NCBI GenBank assembly: GCA_003586005.1
Contig: NSKI01000021.1
Span: forward strand, 1 to 39,350
Length of the DNA: 39,350 bases
Direction: 5' to 3'
Origin: Haloplasmatales bacterium 4B
Lineage (GTDB): Bacteria; Bacillota_I; Bacilli_A; Haloplasmatales; Haloplasmataceae
The stretch's first letter is position 1. Each line of letters begins with the position of its first letter. Under the pieces are notes generated by a model. The model made no database searches, had not been told where the DNA came from, and saw only the letters and a program-made list of their open reading frames with translations. This document shows positions 1 to 17,020 of this stretch, piece by piece. The position numbers were made by a program, and so were the translations under genes.

Positions 1-3000
1 CTTAAATTAATTCCTGAATTATCTAATACGTTTAAGATATTCCCCCATGCATCATAGGTATATGATACCATGACATTTCCAAATATATCAACTATTTTTG
101 TAATATCACCTTGTAAATTTCTGATATAAAAATATTCTTCTCCATTTATTTCATCATCTAAATTGTTATCATATAAGAAACTTATTATTGTTCCATCTAC
201 ATCATATGTATAATAAATTCCTTTAGTAATAGTTAAAATGTTGTTAGTGTATTCTTTAATTTCTTCAAATATTACCATATCGCCTTCTAAGAAATAATTA
301 TATTCAGTGTAATTAGTTTTCTCGTTATTGGTAAAAATTTGTTTGCGTACTCTTATTCCTTGATCATTATAACTATATATTATTTGTTCCTTAAAAATAT
401 TATTTTCATATACTGTATAACTTACTAATTGTCTTCCTTCCCAGGTTAATTCAACGTAATTATTAATGTCATCATCACTAACTATTTTAGTTGGATTCCC
501 ATTATCATCATACTGAATAGTTTTTCCATTAAAATTAATTAATTGATCATTCCAGCCATTTGTCTCATAATCATAAGAATATGTATAAATTAAATTTGCT
601 TCATCTACTAATATGTAATTATATTGTTTTTTACTTAATATATTCCCATACATATCATATGAATAGACATAAGTAAATTTAACTTCTTCATTAAATGTAT
701 TAGTATAAAAAATATCTTCTTGTATTAATTGATTTAATTCATCATAAATATAATCATATTGTTCAACTATAATACTATTCTCTTTTACAATGATTTGTAT
801 AATATTTCCTAATTCATCATAGGTATATGAGTAAGATAAGCCATTTAATAAATTATAAGTAAGCTCTTTAATACGTGTAGACGCGTTCCCCATAGATGAA
901 TCTACACTACCGTCATCGTAGATAAAACCTTGAGTAATTATTGTAATATCATCAATAATAATATCTATTTTATCTAATCGTTGTAAATCATCATGAATTA
1001 CATCTTTATAAATATAGTCTTTAACAATGTTGCTATAAGTAGTTTTATCATATTGGTCATTAGCATAATCATTGTCATATGATACAGTTCGATCAAAGTT
1101 ATCAATTATGTAGTGTACATTCGACATATCACCTTGTTCATTATAACTATAATTCATTTTTCGATTATTATTATCTACAACAGAAGTAAGTCTACCAATT
1201 GAATCATAAAAATAAGTATATTCATTTCTTGAATTTTCATCTAATATTTCAATATATTTAGCTAAATTACCATTTTGATCATATTTATAAATGTATTTAT
1301 CTTGATAATTAACTGTATCATTTTCTCTAAATTGGATACTTGTTAATTGATCTTCATCATTATAGATAAATCTAATACTATTTCCGTTCCCATAATCTTG
1401 AGATTCCAATCTATCTGTATAATAAAGCGTACCATCTTCAGCAACGTATTGTTCATACTGATAGCTCATAATGGATATATCGTTAATTTTTACATTTTCT
1501 ATTCTACCTAAACTATCATACTCAAAATTATAATAGAAATTATTTACATGTATTTCTTTAAGACGATTATCAATATAAACATATTCATTTTGTGAATAAA
1601 CTGTACCTCCAGTTAAATCAGTATTTTCTACTTTTACTAATCTTCCATAATCATCATATTCATAATTAGTTATTACTCCTTTAGGATTTGTTACCTTATC
1701 TAATAACCCATTATATAGAAAATCAAAATCAATTATGGTTCCATATTCATCAGTTACTTCATCTTTAAACAAACCACTTATCGCATATGTTGTAGATGTA
1801 CTGAACCAATTACCATTTTGATTACCAGAAATAACTTTTTCAATATTATTTGTTTCATTATATACAAAATTCACCTTAATATTATTATTTTCAATTAAAT
1901 TTATTCTTTTAGAATTTGACGGATCATATCCAACTGATGTTGTATTACCGCTACCATCAGTAATTGATTCTACTTGATCAGTATTATTTGGATCATAATT
2001 TATTGTTGTCTCACCTTCAACATTTGGAGAATCAATCTCTGTTAATTTTCCAATTGTATTATATGAATAATCTGTCCCAAATTGTTCTTGTTTTAATTGA
2101 AGTCCATCAAACATCACAGAATTATCATTTTTATATCTAATTTCAAATATAATTTTATCATAATCTGTAGTTGTAGTAATAGATGTCATCAAAAATTGCC
2201 ATTCAGATACATTAGTATTATAATGCAATACTTTAGAATCCTCTGTTAATTGTGAATCTTTTATTGTATATACAACAATTGAAAACTCTTTTTCAGCATA
2301 ATTATTATAAGGTGTAATAAACCCTTTAGCCCAACCACCAAAAGTAAAGGTTTCGCCTGCTGTACCGCTTTTTGTAATTTCTTGACTAAAAGTTTGTGTG
2401 TTATTAGGGTCACCTTCAATTTCAATAGCGTTTTCTCCTAAAAAGTCTCTATAAATATCAGATTCGCTAGTTCCATTACTTATAAGATTTGCTCCTATCC
2501 AGCCATAATCATCTTCAAATGAAGGGTTTTCTAATAGATTTAGACCATTTAAAATAATTTCCCTAGTTAAATAAACACTATCAAAATATGCTATGCCTGA
2601 AGCATCTAATATACCTAATTCAACACTTACAACAACATCATCATTATCTATTGTAAATGTTAATTGTTTAAAATGCCAATCAGTATCATCATTTATTGTA
2701 TCAACTATATAAGTTTCAATTCCATTCCCATCATCATATGAAACACGAATGAACGCCCCTTGCCCATTAACAATATTTACAGTCTTAATAAATGAAGATA
2801 AATTATATGTACCTTGAGGTAATACAACATCTTGTTTTGTATATAAATCATACCCTTCAGTTATTTTATTAATAAATAAGCTATCATTACCAAGTATACC
2901 TTCAGAATATCCATAAATAAAATTACCTATAGATGGTATATCTGTGTAAGATGAATTATTTATCCAATTTGAATTATCAAAAAAACTTGGATTTTTTATT

Positions 3001-3740
3001 AAATTATTAATTGTTTTTTGTGGTTGCGAAATATTTTTAATTTTATGATTTAAATAATAATTAGGATTAAATGGATCCACTCCATCTCCATTAAAGATAT
3101 CTTCATATTCATAATAAATCGCATTACCATAATCATCAAGTATATTTATGGTGTGTCCATAATTATCAAATGTATAATAAACTGAATCTCCACGATAATC
3201 AGTAAATGTAGTCCTACCTAATTCATATTTAATATCAAATGCTGATATTAATTGTTGTCCTAAATTGTCTCTCAATTCAACTCTATTAACTCTGGTTCCT
3301 TGATAATTGTATATTATTTTATTGTCATATTTACTTGTTACTGATGTTAATTTATGTGTTGAAGGTGAGTATGTAAAAATAGAACTATGTTCCGAGTTAA
3401 AATTAAATTGTTCATTTAATAAGAATCTTGAATCTATTTCATTAACTTTAAACCACTCATAATATTCTTCAACACTGTTATTTGCAACTGTAAGTTCATC
3501 AATAGAAAACCATGCTTGTGGTTGTCCATCATAATCAATATAATCATCATCGTTTCTAACATATTTTATATACTCATATAGAGTTCTTGTGTCACTAGAA
3601 GCTGTTAATTTTTTCCATCGATAATTAATATCAATTGGAACTATATCCTCATCTCTTTCTAACCAAGTATCAACTTGTGGAGAAACTGGAGACCATTCTT
3701 TTTGTAATTTATAAGGATTATTATCTGCCATATTAATCAT
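1..3740 (-). CDS. RHS/YD-repeat protein, partial (continues past the left edge), probably 5'-truncated
   Basis: One uninterrupted minus-strand frame from the ATG at 3740 (or 3731) runs off the window, giving about 1,240 visible residues. After a short N-terminal part come two jelly-roll, carbohydrate-binding-like modules, each opening with an NPSF motif (LIKNPSFF and LLENPSFE). Many YD-type repeats follow (for example YSYDYETNGW, YNYQGT). The visible end, LQGDITKIVDIFGNV then YDAWGN, is the RHS core, so the core-to-tip junction lies just outside the window. In this family such proteins form a shell around a variable C-terminal toxin or are wall-associated (WapA-like). No signal peptide or transmembrane segment is present at the N-terminus, a TAG lies in frame just before the ATG, and no good Shine-Dalgarno sequence is visible. 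I therefore infer loss of the original 5' part. Any toxin tip or immunity gene would lie further left. Confidence 0.85.
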   Translation of the reverse strand, partial: MINMADNNPYKLQKEWSPVSPQVDTWLERDEDIVPIDINYRWKKLTASSDTRTLYEYIKYVRNDDDYIDYDGQPQAWFSIDELTVANNSVEEYYEWFKVNEIDSRFLLNEQFNFNSEHSSIFTYSPSTHKLTSVTSKYDNKIIYNYQGTRVNRVELRDNLGQQLISAFDIKYELGRTTFTDYRGDSVYYTFDNYGHTINILDDYGNAIYYEYEDIFNGDGVDPFNPNYYLNHKIKNISQPQKTINNLIKNPSFFDNSNWINNSSYTDIPSIGNFIYGYSEGILGNDSLFINKITEGYDLYTKQDVVLPQGTYNLSSFIKTVNIVNGQGAFIRVSYDDGNGIETYIVDTINDDTDWHFKQLTFTIDNDDVVVSVELGILDASGIAYFDSVYLTREIILNGLNLLENPSFEDDYGWIGANLISNGTSESDIYRDFLGENAIEIEGDPNNTQTFSQEITKSGTAGETFTFGGWAKGFITPYNNYAEKEFSIVVYTIKDSQLTEDSKVLHYNTNVSEWQFLMTSITTTTDYDKIIFEIRYKNDNSVMFDGLQLKQEQFGTDYSYNTIGKLTEIDSPNVEGETTINYDPNNTDQVESITDGSGNTTSVGYDPSNSKRINLIENNNIKVNFVYNETNNIEKVISGNQNGNWFSTSTTYAISGLFKDEVTDEYGTIIDFDFLYNGLLDKVTNPKGVITNYEYDDYGRLVKVENTDLTGGTVYSQNEYVYIDNRLKEIHVNNFYYNFEYDSLGRIENVKINDISIMSYQYEQYVAEDGTLYYTDRLESQDYGNGNSIRFIYNDEDQLTSIQFRENDTVNYQDKYIYKYDQNGNLAKYIEILDENSRNEYTYFYDSIGRLTSVVDNNNRKMNYSYNEQGDMSNVHYIIDNFDRTVSYDNDYANDQYDKTTYSNIVKDYIYKDVIHDDLQRLDKIDIIIDDITIITQGFIYDDGSVDSSMGNASTRIKELTYNLLNGLSYSYTYDELGNIIQIIVKENSIIVEQYDYIYDELNQLIQEDIFYTNTFNEEVKFTYVYSYDMYGNILSKKQYNYILVDEANLIYTYSYDYETNGWNDQLINFNGKTIQYDDNGNPTKIVSDDDINNYVELTWEGRQLVSYTVYENNIFKEQIIYSYNDQGIRVRKQIFTNNEKTNYTEYNYFLEGDMVIFEEIKEYTNNILTITKGIYYTYDVDGTIISFLYDNNLDDEINGEEYFYIRNLQGDITKIVDIFGNVMVSYTYDAWGNILNVLDNSGINL

Positions 3741-4090: not shown

Positions 4091-4495
4091 ATGTCATTTG
4101 AAAAATCATATTATGTTTATCAATATATCCAAAACAAAGCAAACTTAGAAGGAATGTATGAATATGTACCTGATATCAACTTCATGAAATATGCTCAAGA
4201 AAGTAATGTTTATACACTATTTTCTTGGGATGATGCGATAAGTACATTGATTCCCAAAACTGACTTTGTTTTAATTTCTAGAAAAGAAGAATTAAGTTTA
4301 GTTCCCTATGATACAATTATAACAATATTCGAAAACTATTTAGAAAAATGTGAAGGAGATTTATATTTTATTAAAAGAACTCCTGAAACAATAAAATTAT
4401 TTAATCAGATTCCCCAAATTGATATTGACGGTTATGAGATAATTAATGCCGATGATTTCGTAGATATTAATTTAAATGAACAAACCACCAATTAA
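4091..4495 (+). CDS. Hypothetical protein, 134 aa, orphan
   Basis: This is the only sizeable plus-strand gene in the left third, convergent with jetC. I do not recognise a family. The product is acidic, with alternating hydrophobic and charged stretches, no membrane segment and no cysteines. No convincing Shine-Dalgarno sequence precedes the ATG, and the frame is open upstream to about 4040 without another ATG, so it may be the 3' part of a longer lost gene. A strong rho-independent terminator follows directly and includes the stop codon, which supports it being, or having been, a real transcription unit. It overlaps the jetC stop by four bases. It sits where jetD would be expected but shows no resemblance to JetD. 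A small immunity-type protein linked to the RHS locus is possible but unsupported. Confidence 0.55.
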   Translation: MSFEKSYYVYQYIQNKANLEGMYEYVPDINFMKYAQESNVYTLFSWDDAISTLIPKTDFVLISRKEELSLVPYDTIITIFENYLEKCEGDLYFIKRTPETIKLFNQIPQIDIDGYEIINADDFVDINLNEQTTN

Positions 4496-4513
4496 TAATT
4501 TGGTGGTTTTTTT
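4482..4513 (+). terminator. Rho-independent terminator of the 134-aa ORF, overlapping the jetC 3' end
   Basis: AAACCACCAA (4482-4491) pairs perfectly with TTGGTGGTTT (4500-4509), followed by a T run to 4513 on the plus strand. On the minus strand the tail is only weakly T-rich, so the terminator seems built for plus-strand transcription. The last codons of jetC (Lys-Lys-Pro-Pro-Asn-Tyr-stop) are read from within this hairpin. Confidence 0.85.
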
Positions 4514-7500
4514 AAAGTTTTATTAATTTCTATAGCATGAAATGATTCTATAAATGAATCATTTGTCGTTTTTATAACAACTAGTGTTGTGTTAACATGT
4601 TCAATAATTGTTTCAATTCTTTGCGGTGGTACAGCGATTAGTAATTGAATATTTAGTTTTCGATAAAACTCCATCATTGCTTTTATACGTGATTCATCCA
4701 TATTATTGAACGCCTCATCAAACATTACAAAACAAGCAGGACTTAAGTCTTTTCTTTTATCAGCAATTAGTTGTTCAAAGCTTGCTGCAATAACAACATA
4801 AAATGGAGTCTGTGTTTCCCCACCACTTTTTTCACGACTTACTTTAGAAAAATAGGTTATTTCTCCTGAATGGTGATGTATTTTAATATCGTAACTCATA
4901 TAATTTCGATAGTCGCATAATTTAGCTAAAAGCTTCTCCTTTGCTTCATCATTGCAGTCAATAATTAAATTAGAAAATAATTCTTTTAGAATTATTTGAT
5001 TTTGATCACTAAGGGAGTCAGAAAACAACGCCTTTGAAAAATTAAATTCATCAATCATAATAATTTTATAATACTGTTCAAATTGATGATTTGCACTTCC
5101 CTTAAAAATGAATTCGTACTCATCTCCGCCAAATTTTTTCCCATTTAATGCTTTATTTAAATATAATAATTCTTCTTGAGCATTTAGAATATTTTCACGT
5201 AGTTTACAGATAAACTGTTCTTTAAAAGCTATTTCACAATTAATTCTACTTTCCTTAGCTTTTTCCTGATATTTTATTAACTCATATTCTCTAATTTTTT
5301 TTAATTCATCTAGATAATGATAAGTATTCTCTAACGAATTACTATAACTTACTTGATACTTACTATTGAATTGATTTTTATAAGTAATTAATTTATAGCT
5401 TAAGTCTTTTATTTGTTCATCTAAGTGTTTAATTTTATCTTCTACGAATCTAACTAACACTTGATTATCATTGCTAACTTCATTTGATAACTTTATATAA
5501 TTTGATTCATCATATTTTTTATATTTGATTTTTAAACTAATAATTTCATTTTGCAACATTGTTAAGCTTTTATTATTAGCCTCTAATTCCCCACATAAGC
5601 GACCTTCAGTTACTAATAAGCTTTTTTTTGATTCTTCTAATTCATTAATTTTTAATTTATTACAAGTAATATTCTCTTCTACACTTGATAACTCATTAGT
5701 TAAGCGTAATTGACTTAACTTCTTTTTTAATTTATTGATTTCTTTCTCAACTACATAATATTTATTTACTTCAGCAACTTGATGAATAATATAATCTAAT
5801 TGATGATTTTTTACTCTTTGTAAATTAAATTCTAAATTTGAAATTAAATTTGTATATTTTTTTAATTTAGTTTCTAGCTCAATTTTCCGTTTCTCATTCA
5901 TTTGCAGTTGAAATTTAATTGCACTTATTCCAAGGTATGGAACTTTATAGACGGTTTCCTTAATTTGCCTTGCTGTAAAATTTTTATATACCATGCACGT
6001 ATTTGTAATAGCAGTTTTATAATTTTCTAGTTCTGAAACATCATCACAACATATTACATTATTTAGTAACATATTTATATAACCTTGAGCATATTTATTT
6101 TTACAATTTAATTTACTAGCCAGTGAAATTTTATTTGTGTCCTTATACTTAACTATCTCTTTAGTGTTAACTAATCCTACTCCTGATAATTTATCTTTTA
6201 TTTTATACTTTTCATAAATTTTAAGTGCCTGATTAAAATTTTCCTTGGGAACAATTAAATCAAACCGTTGAGTGTTTAAATATCCTTCTAGTGCATTTCG
6301 CCAAAATTCATCACTCACTTCAACTAATTCACAGAAAACATTCACATTAACATATGGTAATTCTTGTTCTAATAGTTTTTTTAAACTTTCTACACTATAA
6401 TCATAACTAAACTGTTTCTTTTTCAATCTCGTAATTATTTCGGTATTATTATGAATATCCTCTTCTATACAATTCAAATCAATTTTAAAATTATTAATTT
6501 TAGCAAGTAATTCTTCTTTAATCTGTTCATATTTTTCTTTAACATTTTTACATAAACTTATGACATCTTCTGCATTTATAAAACTATTAATATTTAGTCT
6601 TTCAATTAGTAAAGCAAGTAATTTTTCTTCTTTTATATTATGCATTGCATATAACGCTAGATTTCTTTCATTTTCAATTATTGCTTTTATATCTTTGACA
6701 TTTGTTTTTAACCTCTGATATTCTTGGTTTTGTTCCTGAAATTTTAATTCAAACATCTGATATGTCTGATAATTGGCATTACTGATTAATAACTCATTTT
6801 CTTGAGTTAACTTAAATATATTTTCTTCTGTTATAAATTCTTTTTGTTTAATATCTCTAATTTTAGTTTCGATTTTTGTAGTTTTATCTAAAAATAATCT
6901 CTCATTATCAGTTAATATTTTATATTGGATATAATCATATAAGTTATTATAATCGTTTAATTCTTTAAAATTTGCTTGAATATTATTATATTCAGTTTCA
7001 ATCTCTACTAGAGTGTTTTCCTTTTCTATTAATGTATTTACTAGTGTTTCAAATTCTTGATAACTTTTTACATTCTGTCGTAAATCATCAATTGATACAT
7101 TTTTTTCGTTTAATAAGAAGTCAAACACAAATTTATTTAAATCATTTATAGGTCTAAAGGCAAGTGCTTTAGGTATTAGTTCAATATACTTATCATTTAT
7201 TATCTCTAAAACATTCAAAAATAATTTTCGAGTTTGTTCTTTTGATTCACAAAACGTAACCTCAATATTTTTAATTAGTAATTGTTTTTTAAAAAATGCA
7301 TAACCTTTAATATAATTTTTGTCTATAAAAAAAGAATCTTCAATACTTTGATTATATATAACATAAAAATGCTCATAAATTCTACCTGTCTGGTTAATTT
7401 CTAACACACACCCCAAAATCTTTGAACTTAGATTTATATCATCATAAAATTCTAATGCTATATGACTTGTAATACCTTTATCACGTAGGAATGTTTTATT

Positions 7501-7740
7501 TTCTGTTCCCAATTTACAACGGATATATCCCTCTAAATCACGTTTAGCAAAATTATTTGCTGCTGTATTAAATTTTGCCTTGCCTCCTGTTAATACATAT
7601 TGAATGGCATCTAGAAAAGTTGATTTTCCAGAACCATTTTCACCAGATAACAAACTATTTCCATCAATTTTAATTGTTTGATTGGTAAATAAGTGCCAGT
7701 TAATTAATTTTATCCTTACTAATTTCTTCAATAGTTTCAC
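4492..7740 (-). CDS. jetC: JetC-like SMC ATPase of a Wadjet-type system
   Basis: 1082 residues, the size of a JetC/MukB-like SMC. The Walker A motif GENGSGKST is at residues 33-41 and is followed by FLDAIQYVLTGG. A long Lys/Glu/Asn-rich coiled coil fills the middle, with a hinge-like segment around residues 430-600. The ABC signature KSGGETQ is near residue 972 and Walker B CFVMFDEAF near 1003-1011. Both halves of the ATPase head are therefore present. In Wadjet, JetC is the loop-extruding ATPase that works with JetA (kleisin) and JetB to detect closed circular DNA, which JetD then cuts. The gene starts with GTG directly after jetB (3 bases between). The last residues, KKPPNY, are read from the terminator of the opposing ORF, so the natural C-terminus may have been altered by a rearrangement. 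The assignment to the family is firm; the function without JetD is uncertain. Confidence 0.88.
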   Translation of the reverse strand: MKLLKKLVRIKLINWHLFTNQTIKIDGNSLLSGENGSGKSTFLDAIQYVLTGGKAKFNTAANNFAKRDLEGYIRCKLGTENKTFLRDKGITSHIALEFYDDINLSSKILGCVLEINQTGRIYEHFYVIYNQSIEDSFFIDKNYIKGYAFFKKQLLIKNIEVTFCESKEQTRKLFLNVLEIINDKYIELIPKALAFRPINDLNKFVFDFLLNEKNVSIDDLRQNVKSYQEFETLVNTLIEKENTLVEIETEYNNIQANFKELNDYNNLYDYIQYKILTDNERLFLDKTTKIETKIRDIKQKEFITEENIFKLTQENELLISNANYQTYQMFELKFQEQNQEYQRLKTNVKDIKAIIENERNLALYAMHNIKEEKLLALLIERLNINSFINAEDVISLCKNVKEKYEQIKEELLAKINNFKIDLNCIEEDIHNNTEIITRLKKKQFSYDYSVESLKKLLEQELPYVNVNVFCELVEVSDEFWRNALEGYLNTQRFDLIVPKENFNQALKIYEKYKIKDKLSGVGLVNTKEIVKYKDTNKISLASKLNCKNKYAQGYINMLLNNVICCDDVSELENYKTAITNTCMVYKNFTARQIKETVYKVPYLGISAIKFQLQMNEKRKIELETKLKKYTNLISNLEFNLQRVKNHQLDYIIHQVAEVNKYYVVEKEINKLKKKLSQLRLTNELSSVEENITCNKLKINELEESKKSLLVTEGRLCGELEANNKSLTMLQNEIISLKIKYKKYDESNYIKLSNEVSNDNQVLVRFVEDKIKHLDEQIKDLSYKLITYKNQFNSKYQVSYSNSLENTYHYLDELKKIREYELIKYQEKAKESRINCEIAFKEQFICKLRENILNAQEELLYLNKALNGKKFGGDEYEFIFKGSANHQFEQYYKIIMIDEFNFSKALFSDSLSDQNQIILKELFSNLIIDCNDEAKEKLLAKLCDYRNYMSYDIKIHHHSGEITYFSKVSREKSGGETQTPFYVVIAASFEQLIADKRKDLSPACFVMFDEAFNNMDESRIKAMMEFYRKLNIQLLIAVPPQRIETIIEHVNTTLVVIKTTNDSFIESFHAIEINKTLKKPPNY

Positions 7741-7743
7741 ACC

Positions 7744-8340
7744 CTAATTATAACTATTTAACTTATTGTAAATCTCATTAATATCTTCTGTGTTTACTGC
7801 ATATAAAATGGAGGGATATAGGCAGATTCTGCTCATATCATCACTAAAATCATAATCCATTATCTCAATCAAATTATATCTTTTAAACAACGCTAAGATT
7901 TGCCTTAGCTCTGTTTTACAAATACGATGATCTCTAAATCCAACCGTAAACAATTTTTCGTGGATAGTTTCTAAATTAATTATTATTTTATCGTTTAAAG
8001 ATATTTCTCGCATCAACTCATCATATAGTAGTCTTAATATCAATAAAACGATACTTTCATTTAATTTAAGGTTTAAATGGTTATAATTTTCCTTATTTTG
8101 TAAAACAATTACTTTGTTAGTAGAATCATAGATTAGCTCATTTTCCATTAAGTAAAAGTAGTTTTGAAACAAGTTAAAATGATTAGTAATAAAGTAGTAA
8201 TCATCTGTATCTGTTTCTTTAAAATAAGTGATAAAATTTAAACCAAGTAATTTATTTGCAAGTTTAGAGAAAAGTTTTTTATCTTTTTCGTTTAATATAA
8301 GATACTGATCATAAAAATTAGTTGCATATTGCTCAGTCAT
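7744..8340 (-). CDS. jetB: JetB-like subunit (MukE-like, DUF4194 type)
   Basis: About 198 residues. The start is the ATG at 8340, which follows AGGAGG by four bases; the longer frame from 8355 would begin inside that ribosome-binding site. The segment KLANKLLGLNFITYFKETDTDDYYFI, read in pieces, shows the typical JetB pattern of a small helical domain, then a Tyr/Phe-rich strand, then a winged-helix-like region (LNESIVLLILRLLYDEL). JetB is the MukE-like partner that bridges the kleisin JetA and the ATPase heads of JetC. The gene overlaps the 3' end of jetA by 8 bases and lies 3 bases before jetC, which implies translational coupling and fixed stoichiometry. Confidence 0.8.
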   Translation of the reverse strand: MTEQYATNFYDQYLILNEKDKKLFSKLANKLLGLNFITYFKETDTDDYYFITNHFNLFQNYFYLMENELIYDSTNKVIVLQNKENYNHLNLKLNESIVLLILRLLYDELMREISLNDKIIINLETIHEKLFTVGFRDHRICKTELRQILALFKRYNLIEIMDYDFSDDMSRICLYPSILYAVNTEDINEIYNKLNSYN

Positions 8341-9691
8341 AATTCCTCCTAACAATTAAAAAATCACCAAAATGAAAACCTTTTTTACTATATGAGTTAT
8401 TTAGTGGTTTAATTTTATAACTAATATCATTACTATATCCATATAAATATAGTAAAATAATTTTTGTATAATCTATATAATCCTCAAGTGGAAGCGTATG
8501 TGCTGCGATTTGACTTTCATTTTCAAATAACGATTTAATATATAAGTCAAGACTCTTTTTACTAAATAAATTATTTTCTAAAAATTTTAATAATTGATTT
8601 TGCTTTAATTCAAAAGGCACTTGCTTAGTTGGCAATACTTGAATTATTTTTTTATTGTCTCGATTTGGCATATTATATAGTGAAGATTTACCTAAGTATT
8701 TTTGGGGGTGGAGTTTAAAAATACTGTTTAAATCACTATTTTTATTAACTGAGAGTAAAATTTTAGTGATTTTACCTTGTAAATCATAAGTATTGTGAAC
8801 TATAAACAAAATTTTTGAAACTGACATCTGTATATATTTAGAGTTTTTTCTATCAATTTCACTAATAATTTCATCAAAATTCTTAAAACTATTAATTACA
8901 TAGTCAATTTTATTATAAATATCTTTTTTTGCTGAGGTTGGTTCTTGAAACTTGTTTTTCATAAGTAATTGTTTGACTACTTTTTCGATTATTTCATCAT
9001 CTAAACAAATTTCATTTAATTTACTAATTATATATGGCCGATACTTACTAACATTATCCGATGTCTTTAACCTTTGATAGGATTGATCGATTATGTTTTT
9101 TTTATAATCAACAAATAAATCTTCAACTATGCTTTTTAGATCATTAATAGACTTTTTATTTAATAAATCTTGAATATATTTTTTAATATTTGCATTTAAA
9201 GATTTTAACTTATTCATAACAATATTGGTATTATGATAGATTTGATCAAGAATATCTGAGAATGTACTTATATCCAGGGAATTTAGTGCTGAATATATCA
9301 TATATATATAACCAAGATACTCTAACTCATCATTTTCTTTTAACTCAGACAATGATTTTATAATATGAATTGAGTAAAAAGTAAAATTTACTAATACTTC
9401 GTATTGGCTACCATCTTCTTCAAATATCCAACCACATTGTTTTAGGCGTCTTAATACAGATAATGCTTTCTCTTTTGAATTTAGATTTTCTTGAGTTTCA
9501 TAGCTTGTACAACTATCAAAATATTCAGTTAATAAATTAACCATTAATTCTTTTCGAGCACCAAAAGAATTACCTTGATTAAGATAATTAAACATTAAAA
9601 ATATACAATCAGCATAAACTTTATTATTTTTTGATGACAAAACATTAAAAAAATTATCTGGCAAAACAGAAAATATTTGGCTATCGCTCAT
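8333..9691 (-). CDS. jetA: JetA-like kleisin subunit of a Wadjet-type system
   Basis: About 452 residues, first gene of the jet operon. The N-terminal FSVLPDNFFNVLSSKNNKVYADC matches the JetA (DUF5716-like) opening, in which a short LP.NFF..L pattern leads into a winged-helix domain. The middle is helical (Lys/Asp/Asn-rich) and the C-terminus has a second globular part with DYIDYTKIILLYLYG. I chose the ATG at 9691 because the family starts about there; the frame extends to an ATG at 9706, and neither has a strong Shine-Dalgarno sequence. JetA is the MukF-like kleisin that closes the JetC ring. A possible promoter lies upstream (9747-9775). No jetD is visible upstream or downstream within the window. 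Confidence 0.82.
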   Translation of the reverse strand: MSDSQIFSVLPDNFFNVLSSKNNKVYADCIFLMFNYLNQGNSFGARKELMVNLLTEYFDSCTSYETQENLNSKEKALSVLRRLKQCGWIFEEDGSQYEVLVNFTFYSIHIIKSLSELKENDELEYLGYIYMIYSALNSLDISTFSDILDQIYHNTNIVMNKLKSLNANIKKYIQDLLNKKSINDLKSIVEDLFVDYKKNIIDQSYQRLKTSDNVSKYRPYIISKLNEICLDDEIIEKVVKQLLMKNKFQEPTSAKKDIYNKIDYVINSFKNFDEIISEIDRKNSKYIQMSVSKILFIVHNTYDLQGKITKILLSVNKNSDLNSIFKLHPQKYLGKSSLYNMPNRDNKKIIQVLPTKQVPFELKQNQLLKFLENNLFSKKSLDLYIKSLFENESQIAAHTLPLEDYIDYTKIILLYLYGYSNDISYKIKPLNNSYSKKGFHFGDFLIVRRNYD

Positions 9692-9746
9692 GCAATCACA
9701 CTTCATTCATCGTATAACTTTATAAATATATATTCATTTTCGAGTT

Positions 9747-9775: not shown

Positions 9776-9784
9776 CATACAAAA

Positions 9785-9815
9785 AATCCTATTAAACATC
9801 AAGTTTAATAGGATT
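9785..9815 (-). terminator. Rho-independent terminator after the RsgI-like lipoprotein gene
   Basis: AATCCTATTAAAC and GTTTAATAGGATT form a perfect 13-bp stem with a 5-base loop. On the minus strand it is followed by six T residues. T-rich sequence also follows on the plus strand, so it could work in both directions. Confidence 0.9.
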
Positions 9816-9841
9816 TATTTTTATTTTTATTAAATTATAGT

Positions 9842-11233
9842 TTATTTATTATTTTCCCATAGGTCTTTATACATTTGTTTTTGCTCTCTATATTGAGTTT
9901 TTAAAGCATTAGATTGACTTTTAATTTCAGCAAACTGATTGTTAAATTGATTTCTTATTTCATTTAGGTCTTCATTAATATCATCTATAAATAGTTCTTC
10001 TAACGCTTCTAAATCAATTCCAATTTCTAAGAACAATCCTTCATATTTTTCTCTTGTTTCATGATATTGTGCTTTTCGAATCATTTGTACATTTACCCTT
10101 AGTTGTCCATCAATATCTTCTATATTAAATTTATAATATTCATGAACTCTAGCGAATTCTTGGACATGTTCTTGGATCTTTGTTCTAATTTGAGATTCTA
10201 AATTATTAGTTTCTTCTAATTTAGTTCTTAATTGATTTTTTACTTCTTCAGATAAATTTGTCTGATTTCTTTGTCTAAATTGTTCATGTAATGTTTCAAT
10301 TGCTTGCTCAAGTTCTTCTTTATCACCACGTAGATCAATAATTTCTAAGTCATGATCTATCTCAGCATTTACTCCTTCTTGAACAGCTTCTTCAGGAGTA
10401 GAATTTTTAACTACTAATAATTCATCCAAATATGCTTTATATAATGTTTTTATTTCTTCAACTGTTGTAGAACTTCCAACTAAAATATTAGTAAATATTT
10501 CATCATCAGCAAGTAACATAGCATCATATATAAATTGTACTTTATTAACAAATAGGCTCTCATTCAATTGATTTTTTAAATTTAGATAATTTTGACGTTG
10601 TAAGCTGCTTACAAGCTCTTTCATGTCGTTACGGGCATCAATTACTACTCTGTTCAAGTCTCTAACAGACATTGAGGCAGCAGCTTCTATTGTAAGGGTA
10701 TCATCAAATTCCATTGCTACATTAATTAATTTCAATTTTCCAACACTAATATTTAAAGACTCTGCCAAAGCTTTCATTTCCTCATTAGCTTCTTGATTTG
10801 CCTTAATAACTTGCATTCTAATTTGTTTTCTCTCAGAAAATTTATTAATTCGTTCGGTTATCTTATTTTCTAATTCTTCTGTTTTTACTAAATCATTTGC
10901 TTCAGCAGTTACTACTATCGCATTTTCATCTAGGCCATCAATATAACCTAATTCCATGGCTAACTCAACAATTTCATCAACAACTACTTCTACGGTTTTA
11001 CCAGTATAATCATAATCCACTAATAAAACTTGAGCATCATCATTAATTGCATTAACCTGAACTACTAAGCCATCTTCACCGGTTATAATTTCTATAGACG
11101 GATTTATATCTATAGTCACAAATGCATTTTCAACTTTATAGTCGAGATTATCAACTACATCCGCATCCTTACTACAACCATAAAAGGCTACTGACAAAAC
11201 AAGCATCAACATTAAACTTAACAATTTTTTCAT
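9842..11233 (-). CDS. Lipoprotein with RsgI-like NPS ectodomain
   Basis: 463 residues. The N-terminus is a lipoprotein signal peptide (KK, then a hydrophobic stretch, then AFYGC with the lipidated Cys at 20; the -3 position is unusual). Residues 38-115 carry the motif IDINPSIEI (Asn44-Pro45-Ser46), typical of the extracellular middle domain of RsgI-type anti-sigma factors, in which the Asn-Pro bond is cleaved autoproteolytically. Similarity to the membrane anti-sigma protein at 15151-16497 extends through NIS..K..LI and T.EEA..MS...LN further on, so the two ectodomains are paralogous. The C-terminal half is charged, Gln/Glu-rich and helical. No cytoplasmic sigma-binding segment or transmembrane anchor is present. 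It starts after AGGAGG and has the same 36-bp promoter block as the sigma gene. It may compete with, sense for, or tune the anti-sigma protein at the cell surface (inference). Confidence 0.82.
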   Translation of the reverse strand: MKKLLSLMLMLVLSVAFYGCSKDADVVDNLDYKVENAFVTIDINPSIEIITGEDGLVVQVNAINDDAQVLLVDYDYTGKTVEVVVDEIVELAMELGYIDGLDENAIVVTAEANDLVKTEELENKITERINKFSERKQIRMQVIKANQEANEEMKALAESLNISVGKLKLINVAMEFDDTLTIEAAASMSVRDLNRVVIDARNDMKELVSSLQRQNYLNLKNQLNESLFVNKVQFIYDAMLLADDEIFTNILVGSSTTVEEIKTLYKAYLDELLVVKNSTPEEAVQEGVNAEIDHDLEIIDLRGDKEELEQAIETLHEQFRQRNQTNLSEEVKNQLRTKLEETNNLESQIRTKIQEHVQEFARVHEYYKFNIEDIDGQLRVNVQMIRKAQYHETREKYEGLFLEIGIDLEALEELFIDDINEDLNEIRNQFNNQFAEIKSQSNALKTQYREQKQMYKDLWENNK

Positions 11234-15150: not shown

Positions 15151-16497
15151 TTATTTATTTCCTCTAAAACCTTGGTATTTATCTAGAACATCTTTAGCAA
15201 TTTTATTTTCTCTAAAATCATTACTAATTTCTTTAGATGCAATTATAATGTTATAATCGTTAACTAATTTCTCAATTTTTATAGTAATTTCATCTAAAAG
15301 AAATAGATTATTATTTGCAATATTCATGAGAAGTTGGATTTGAGCTATTAGCTTTATTGCCTCTTTTTCAAACTGGTTATATTCATTATTCGCTAATATT
15401 TCATCAAATGAGAAATCTGTTTCAAAATTAAAATTAGTTTCTGTATTTCTTTTAAACATATTTATTTGTGTATCATATTTTATACTAATCAATTCATTAA
15501 TTAATTCACTCTTGTGATTAATTTCTTGTTCTAAATTATTTAATAAATGGAGATAAAAATTATTACTTACAATTTCATTATAATCATATTCTGGAAAATG
15601 ATTTTTCATTAAATTATCAACATAACTTTTTATTACAATTGGTTTTTCATTTTCTTTAATCATTTCCTTTATTTCATTGATACTTTCTTTAATTTCATTA
15701 ATACTATTTAAATAAGCTGCAACTTCTTCATTTTTACTTTCTGAAAGGCCCTTAACTCCCTGTCTATATTTAAATCTATATTCATTTATTGATTCATCTG
15801 AATAGTTCCTTAATAGTTCGTTTAGTTTTTTAATCGACATCTTAAGAGCTTCCTCCATTGTTATTGATGGATTTTCCTCTATAACTTCTTGAATTAAAAA
15901 CATTTTTCTTGCTGATATGTTATTGGATTTAGCAAGCCTTCTAATTTCTTCTGTGATTTCTTTAACGTAAACTTTTTTATTATTTATAAAATGATTTTTA
16001 ATATTTGAATTTATTTCATCTTCTTTTTCTTGGTCTTCATTAAATGCGGTAATTAGTACTTCATTGTTTTCATTTAAAAATCCAAGCGAACTAGCTAAAT
16101 CAATAATGGTTGTTATTGCATCATTTGAATTTCTGCCTTTTAAACCCTCACTATCTTCAAGAAGTAACACCGCATCTGTGTTTAAAGGTCTAGCATCAAT
16201 TACTTTATCATCTTGATCAACCGTCAATTCAATTGAGGGATTAATATCAATCGATATATAAGTTACATTTATTGGTGTTACAGGATTTTGACTGTTGTTA
16301 ATTAGGAAGATGCTAATACTAAAAATTAACACAAGGAGGGAAAACGCAAAAATAGGTTTGAACCGATATTTAAATGATGGATTCCTTAATTTATTCTTGG
16401 TTTCAATATTTAAGGAATGAAAAACTTGCGCCTTAAGATCAGGGACAAAGTCTTTACTTTCTTTTTGAAGTTGTTTCTTTAAATCATTGATTTTCAT
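15151..16497 (-). CDS. Membrane anti-sigma factor with RsgI-like NPS ectodomain
   Basis: 448 residues from the ATG at 16497 (a GTG at 16506 is the alternative). The short cytoplasmic segment (residues 1-47) probably binds the sigma factor. One membrane helix (about 49-66) follows, then an ectodomain with ISIDINPSIEL (Asn86-Pro87-Ser88). In RsgI proteins this Asn-Pro bond is cut autoproteolytically, which prepares the protein for regulated proteolysis. The rest is helical and charged and may sense a surface signal. RsgI normally pairs with SigI; here the partner is an ECF-type sigma and the cytoplasmic part lacks the usual RsgI N-terminal domain, as far as I can see. The gene overlaps the sigma gene. 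A paralogous ectodomain occurs in the lipoprotein at 9842-11233. Confidence 0.85.
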   Translation of the reverse strand: MKINDLKKQLQKESKDFVPDLKAQVFHSLNIETKNKLRNPSFKYRFKPIFAFSLLVLIFSISIFLINNSQNPVTPINVTYISIDINPSIELTVDQDDKVIDARPLNTDAVLLLEDSEGLKGRNSNDAITTIIDLASSLGFLNENNEVLITAFNEDQEKEDEINSNIKNHFINNKKVYVKEITEEIRRLAKSNNISARKMFLIQEVIEENPSITMEEALKMSIKKLNELLRNYSDESINEYRFKYRQGVKGLSESKNEEVAAYLNSINEIKESINEIKEMIKENEKPIVIKSYVDNLMKNHFPEYDYNEIVSNNFYLHLLNNLEQEINHKSELINELISIKYDTQINMFKRNTETNFNFETDFSFDEILANNEYNQFEKEAIKLIAQIQLLMNIANNNLFLLDEITIKIEKLVNDYNIIIASKEISNDFRENKIAKDVLDKYQGFRGNK

Positions 16498-17020
16498 ACG
16501 TTTCACCTTCAGTCAAACTTTTTAATTTTTTTAAGGAATTATCTAACTTCCATGTAACTCCACTTGTAGAAAGATTTAAGAGTTTAGCGACCTCTCGTCT
16601 CTTATAACCTTCACAAACACATAACATAACAATCATAAATTCATCTTCAGTTAAATTATCTTTAGCTAAGTCAATTAACGGAGTATTTTCTTCTTTAGCA
16701 TCATCAGTTATATAATTGGTTTCTTCAATATCAACGACGACATCATTTTTATATTTTTTATATTCATTTAATGCTAAATTCTTAGCAATTGCTGCAATCC
16801 AAGCCTTTGCGGAAGTATTATCTTTATATAATTTAATTTTTTCAAATATTTTTACAAAAACATTTTGGGTTACATCTTCAGCTCTGGCATAATCTTTTAC
16901 AATAGGGTACACTATGTAAAATACCATACGATGCGTTTGTTCGTAAATTGTATCAAAAGCGCTAGTATCACCATTTTTCAAAAGTTGCATACTCTTTTCA
17001 ATTTTTATGTTATCAAACAT
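16484..17020 (-). CDS. ECF-family RNA polymerase sigma factor
   Basis: 178 residues. Region 2 is clear (AFDTIYEQTHRMVFYIVYPIVKDYARAEDVTQNVFVKIF, read in pieces), followed by AWIAAIAKNLALNEYKK (region 2.4). Region 4 has the helix-turn-helix CEGYKRREVAKLLNLSTSGVTWKLDNSLKKL. The 60 residues between are acidic, as in ECF linkers. The start follows GGAGG by six bases. It overlaps the anti-sigma gene by 14 bases. Its own promoter region contains the 36-bp block also found before the lipoprotein gene, so it probably activates its own operon and that gene. Confidence 0.92.
   Translation of the reverse strand: MFDNIKIEKSMQLLKNGDTSAFDTIYEQTHRMVFYIVYPIVKDYARAEDVTQNVFVKIFEKIKLYKDNTSAKAWIAAIAKNLALNEYKKYKNDVVVDIEETNYITDDAKEENTPLIDLAKDNLTEDEFMIVMLCVCEGYKRREVAKLLNLSTSGVTWKLDNSLKKLKSLTEGETYENQ

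Follow-up and report, generated by a model that had tools for sequence, protein, structure and literature searches.

Wadjet systems that have been characterised detect small circular DNA through extrusion by JetABC and cleave it with JetD (PMC10586767). The MksBEF complex of Pseudomonas aeruginosa is a chromosome organiser that was probably derived through the loss of JetD (PMC10586767). MukBEF and MksBEF have both been proposed to descend from Wadjet-like defence systems by this loss, a relationship that the same source regards as unsettled (PMC10586767). A type I Wadjet operon, jetA-jetB-jetC, without jetD is present in a 39,350-base stretch of DNA from Haloplasmatales bacterium 4B (Haloplasmataceae), referred to here as the window, which is an entire contig (C18) of a 2.26 Mb genome in 77 contigs. 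Judged from its sequence and those of its relatives, this operon is probably a type I Wadjet that is stably inherited without a nuclease and would act as an MksBEF/MukBEF-like loop extruder on the chromosome, beside Smc-ScpAB in this genome and in place of Smc-ScpAB in sister orders.

The window operon shares with type I Wadjet JetABCD (also MksFEBG or EptABCD) its subunits, the jetA-jetB-jetC order, the tight spacing and the best-matching hidden Markov model families. It differs in being closed by a terminator and in having no JetD nuclease of type I, either within the operon or in the rest of the genome. In sister orders JetABC is not patchy but is a core component inherited vertically. Like P. 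aeruginosa MksBEF, which has no MksG, it is a nuclease-free complex of the JetABC type that coexists with Smc-ScpAB (PMC10586767). However, it belongs to another phylum, in which JetD has been lost or regained more than once and Smc-ScpAB is gone from sister orders. The enterobacterial MukBEF is a Muk-type complex that replaced Smc-ScpAB, and MukF is the best match of the predicted JetA structure, but the window sequences fall in the families JetC1, JetA1 and JetB1 rather than MukB, MukF and MukE. The role proposed here is like that of Smc-ScpAB, although the SMC and kleisin families differ and the ScpA-ScpB of this genome form a separate locus. The genome also has a type III Wadjet on contig C32, which is complete (jetD3-A3-B3-C3), has a JetC of 1478 aa and lies beside McrBC-like genes, whereas the window operon is of type I and lacks JetD.

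The operon consists of three intact open reading frames (ORFs) on the minus strand, spanning 4492-9706. The first, jetA (8333..9706, 457 aa), encodes an MksF/MukF-like kleisin (PADLOC JetA1, 3.6e-119; Pfam JetA, 1.8e-88); its second ATG, at 9691, is an alternative start and is the one used in the original prediction. The KITE subunit gene jetB (7744..8355, 203 aa) is MksE/MukE-like (PADLOC JetB1, 1.1e-57; Pfam DUF4194, 2.3e-26) and its true start is likely to be the ATG at 8340, which is preceded by the ribosome-binding site AGGAGG. The third gene, jetC (4492..7740, 1082 aa), encodes an MksB/MukB-like SMC ATPase (PADLOC JetC1, 3.8e-282) with Pfam matches to SbcC Walker B/AAA_29, and the JetC family profile matches the solved JetC 8dk2 (E 1.1e-24). 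Alignment and a motif table place the Walker A motif GENGSGKST at residues 33-41 (7618..7644, minus strand), the ABC signature KSGGE at residues 971-975 (4816..4830, minus strand) and the Walker B motif CFVMFDEAF at residues 1003-1011 (4708..4734, minus strand), which reads on as DEAFNNMD. All three ATPase motifs are therefore complete, and the earlier claim that JetA, JetB and JetC are intact by motif is borne out by the ORFs and by the PADLOC and Pfam families, which give type I JetA, JetB and JetC in this order. The operon thus combines an SMC ATPase carrying the three motifs, a KITE partner and a kleisin with a predicted MukF-like fold, as in MksBEF/MukBEF-type condensins. The window proteins score far below the cut-off of the SMC models (TIGR02168) and below that of the MukB Pfam model, with JetA and DUF4194 matched instead, and so belong neither to Smc-ScpAB nor to MukBEF proper.

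No gene for JetD (DUF3322/DUF2220, Toprim) adjoins jetC. An intrinsic terminator with a 10-bp stem (AAACCACCAA..TTGGTGGTTT) overlaps the jetC stop codon (4482..4509, minus strand), ending the operon at the point at which a jetD would start; beyond it are a convergent 134-aa ORF that ends in this terminator and then an RHS-repeat gene. A second, bidirectional terminator with a 14-bp stem (9784..9816) lies between jetA and an upstream RsgI-like gene. The scan that identified them found 6 terminator-like sites against 0.6 expected. With terminators at the jetC stop and between jetA and its upstream neighbour, jetABC looks like a transcription unit of its own. Neither ORFs nor Pfam matches indicate a jetD anywhere in the 39,350-base contig, and the gene expected after jetC is missing, as the original prediction had stated. 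A jetD just left of the window is ruled out, since the contig is exactly this long, ending at base 1, where the gene is that of the RHS protein. The genome-wide search for JetD that had been proposed yields a single JetD_C match, on contig C32, and no match to DUF3322. This JetD is the first gene of the complete type III Wadjet, and jetABC therefore remains without one. A divergent JetD elsewhere in the genome was considered as a partner, and the type III copy in its own operon was all that was found.

The comparison with related jet loci, also proposed earlier, covered eight Haloplasmatales genomes including that of the window. JetC1 homologues are present in all eight and are of two kinds. 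The JetD-less jetABC is found in six (the window's genome, G001, G002, G005, G006 and G007), and the five further copies, which are orthologous, have 35-54% identity to the window JetA and 39-53% to the window JetC. The second kind, in G001, G002, G003 and G005, has a JetC that is about 35-36% identical and a JetD of about 400 aa that overlaps or abuts jetC. Three genomes (G001, G002 and G005) thus carry both the JetD-less operon and a separate complete JetABCD. In G004 (L022/L024, contig G004:C111) the jetD of a JetABCD locus is in two ORFs of 210 and 129 aa, which is possibly a jetD being lost or an assembly error. The JetD_C matches across the order coincide with loci of the second kind, except for the type III copy in the window's genome and the sole JetD of G007, a weak match of type II beside its own JetC2. 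Genome G006, which is in two contigs and 98% complete, has the same JetD-less jetABC and no match to JetD. ScpA is present in all eight genomes, and in that of the window it adjoins ScpB at a locus separate from jetABC.

In the JetC tree the window sequence groups with L014-L017 with a support of 100, apart from the JetD-bearing copies of the same family. The JetD-less copies of families f9, f18, f20, f21 and f22 likewise cluster by family, and JetD-bearing copies of f21 and f7 cluster together. The trees are without a trusted outgroup root. On the larger tree the JetD-less state needs 8 changes, at least 5 of them forced by strongly supported branches, a count that is soft as some long branches meet in this tree; on a smaller tree with the long branches removed it needs 3. 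A single clade for all JetD-less sequences is rejected (approximately unbiased (AU) test, p 3.8e-7), so JetD has been lost, or regained, more than once. A clade uniting the window's family with Acholeplasmatales is rejected as well (AU p 0.005). Purifying selection is evident in close pairs of JetD-less relatives, where the ratio of nonsynonymous to synonymous substitution rates (dN/dS) is 0.01-0.29 for jetA, jetB and jetC; no relative is near enough to give the ratio for the window's own genes.

The profile of JetD-less JetC, run against GTDB genome contigs, gave 80 loci. The loci with the labels Acholeplasmataceae, Acholeplasma, Peloplasma, phytoplasma or Tenericutes all have jetABC (jetBC in the phytoplasmas) without jetD, and in Erysipelotrichia, Lachnospiraceae and Enterococcus jetD is present wherever the contig continues beyond jetC. 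Among 95 Acholeplasmatales genomes that are at least 90% complete, phytoplasmas included, JetC is found in 80 and JetD-less JetC in 79. A JetD above the cut-off is present in 7 of the 95, always next to a JetC of its own; for six this JetC is a second copy or the only one that the profile found, and for the seventh it is a more divergent JetC. Of the 79 genomes with JetD-less JetC, 73 have no JetD over the cut-off. The absence of a dedicated nuclease subunit is thus conserved across the window's family and Acholeplasmatales.

ScpA and SMC (TIGR02168) are each found in 0 of these 95 genomes, by searches that were positive in control genomes. ScpA is present in 9 of 9 JetABCD genomes (relatives of Erysipelotrichia, Lachnospiraceae and Enterococcus), as opposed to 0 of 21 with JetD-less JetABC. 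Across 394 genomes of the class, 15 have ScpA and JetC, 102 JetC alone, 187 ScpA alone and 90 neither, an avoidance with an odds ratio of 0.07 (Fisher test, 1e-24, ignoring kinship). The main group among the 15 with both is the window's family, with seven; the rest are in f13 and f19, and both f19 loci carry JetD. In a phytoplasma contig of 0.75 Mb (G465:C1), read in pieces, jetB-jetC (L249:9366-13272) lies about 540 kb from jetA (L277:18117-19490), and no ScpA, ScpB or JetD was found on it. All three jet subunits are therefore retained there despite the split of the operon. A short JetA upstream of the phytoplasma jetB was considered and rejected, as its motifs appear to be those of a HAD-type phosphatase and jetA is elsewhere; all six phytoplasma loci examined have a HAD-like phosphatase gene upstream of jetB.

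It is likely that JetC dimers, held by JetA-JetB, would load onto DNA and use ATP to extrude loops. With no JetD recruited, the trapped DNA would be folded and left uncut, and the JetABC motor would act on the chromosome, where it may bind and take part in segregation. In the window's genome JetABC would work alongside Smc-ScpAB. The JetD-less JetABC is the sole condensin detected in Acholeplasmatales and in several sister families, where it may have taken over the role of Smc-ScpAB. On more than one occasion, anti-plasmid Wadjet motors may well have become nuclease-free chromosomal condensins by domestication among relatives of the mollicutes, replacing Smc-ScpAB in Acholeplasmatales, phytoplasmas and several sister families, with Haloplasmataceae keeping both and some having an armed JetABCD in addition. 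Armed JetABCD, unarmed JetABC beside Smc-ScpAB, as in the window, and unarmed JetABC without Smc-ScpAB, as in Acholeplasma and phytoplasmas, appear to coexist in living relatives. The path from a plasmid cutter to a chromosome organiser thus becomes testable. This also suggests that phytoplasma and acholeplasma chromosomes are folded by a Wadjet-derived machine, and that calling Wadjet from jetABC alone would wrongly class such genomes as defended against plasmids. A search limited to open-access literature found no paper on such systems in Acholeplasma, Haloplasma or phytoplasmas, which does not in itself establish priority.

Several observations weigh against the reading of JetABC as a chromosomal loop extruder that replaced Smc-ScpAB in sister orders. 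As ScpA-ScpB is still encoded, JetABC need not be the main condensin of the window's genome, and G003 and G004 have no JetD-less copy. The window and Acholeplasmatales clades are not sisters, so the role is carried over from one to the other by analogy. The avoidance of ScpA and JetC in the class is uncorrected for relatedness. In addition, neither marker is found in 90 of the 394 class genomes (for example f5, f12 and f16) and 15 of the 95 Acholeplasmatales, and JetABC is therefore not always needed once ScpA is gone.

The original prediction had left the choice between a JetD encoded elsewhere, a disarmed operon, a MukBEF-like organiser and a different effector. It is highly improbable that the operon is a decaying Wadjet, in which jetABC is a functionless relic of the loss of jetD. 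The lack of JetD would fit this, as would the visible decay of the convergent neighbour, gene X. This gene, of about 295 aa, is common to three Haloplasmataceae genomes (L014, L015 and L016) and survives in the window as a remnant that is 28-40% identical (4091..4495, plus strand), its C-terminal half open and its N-terminal half broken by many upstream stops. Decay is therefore ongoing beside jetABC, yet the three ORFs and the ATPase motifs are intact, as are the orthologues in five more genomes, making six of the eight in the family, and JetD-less operons are kept in most of the neighbouring order. JetD-less genes elsewhere have the low dN/dS given above and persist in phytoplasma genomes of 0.5-0.8 Mb. 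Continued plasmid restriction with a JetD acting in trans is also very unlikely. There is one JetD in the window's genome, the type III copy of C32, and among relatives a type I JetD in five family members and one of type II in G007. However, all of these genes belong to separate operons, each together with a JetABC of another type or clade. In G006 the same JetD-less operon occurs in a genome with no JetD at all, and nearly all Acholeplasmatales with JetD-less JetC are likewise without it.

A different effector, or the silencing of plasmids or phages by compaction without cutting, would also require no JetD, and Smc5/6 is known to silence by compaction (PMC10586767). This is unlikely, although less so than a relic or a JetD in trans. 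No conserved co-directional gene follows jetC. The genes that do follow it at JetD-less loci vary by clade and, where they can be named, are housekeeping genes (C1 peptidase, ptsI, rsmE, sugar nucleotidyltransferase and sepF). Gene X was considered as a substitute effector and rejected, being convergent, without a Pfam family, decaying in the window and not adjoining jetC in L017 and L018. Defence genes are usually patchy, whereas JetABC is near-universal in an order where Smc-ScpAB is absent, and in phytoplasmas jetA is split from jetBC. Of the options raised, the MukBEF-like organiser is therefore the best supported. In family f21 (L187-L191, L197, L199 and L200) a gene of about 110 aa, identified by Pfam as the cell-division gene sepF in L188, abuts or overlaps the end of jetC, an adjacency that links the complex to cell division.

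For JetA, the AlphaFold model (pLDDT 77) has its best Foldseek matches in MukF (9gm7) and JetABCD (8q72_E). A sequence search with JetA gave no match to the solved JetA. In our reading of its elements, the model has winged-helix domains at both termini, separated by a helical bundle followed by a disordered linker. Of 55 JetD-bearing sequences, 50 have Arg at position 298, at the end of the long helix 256-306; Lys is found there in 102 of about 108 JetD-less ones, including the window (Lys298, 8813..8815, minus strand), and the position is a candidate marker. It is the sole column of this kind across JetA, JetB and JetC. It was rejected as proof that a contact with JetD has been lost, there being exceptions and just five independent pairs; once relatedness is corrected for, the association is not significant (p 0.5). 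Position 298 is thus a candidate for mutagenesis and nothing beyond this. The N-terminal IFDR motif of JetB, a JetD contact in characterised Wadjet, is not recognisable even in JetD-bearing relatives and is therefore uninformative on JetD loss.

Other genes of the window include the RHS-repeat protein (3-3740, minus strand), which is at least 1246 aa and runs off the contig end. Two proteins with RsgI_M anti-sigma domains are encoded at 9842-11233 and 15151-16506 (minus strand), the second overlapping an extracytoplasmic function (ECF) sigma factor gene (16484-17020). On contig C32 (L002, 3042-10804) the type III Wadjet is followed by two genes that in our reading resemble an McrBC-type pair, forming a defence island.
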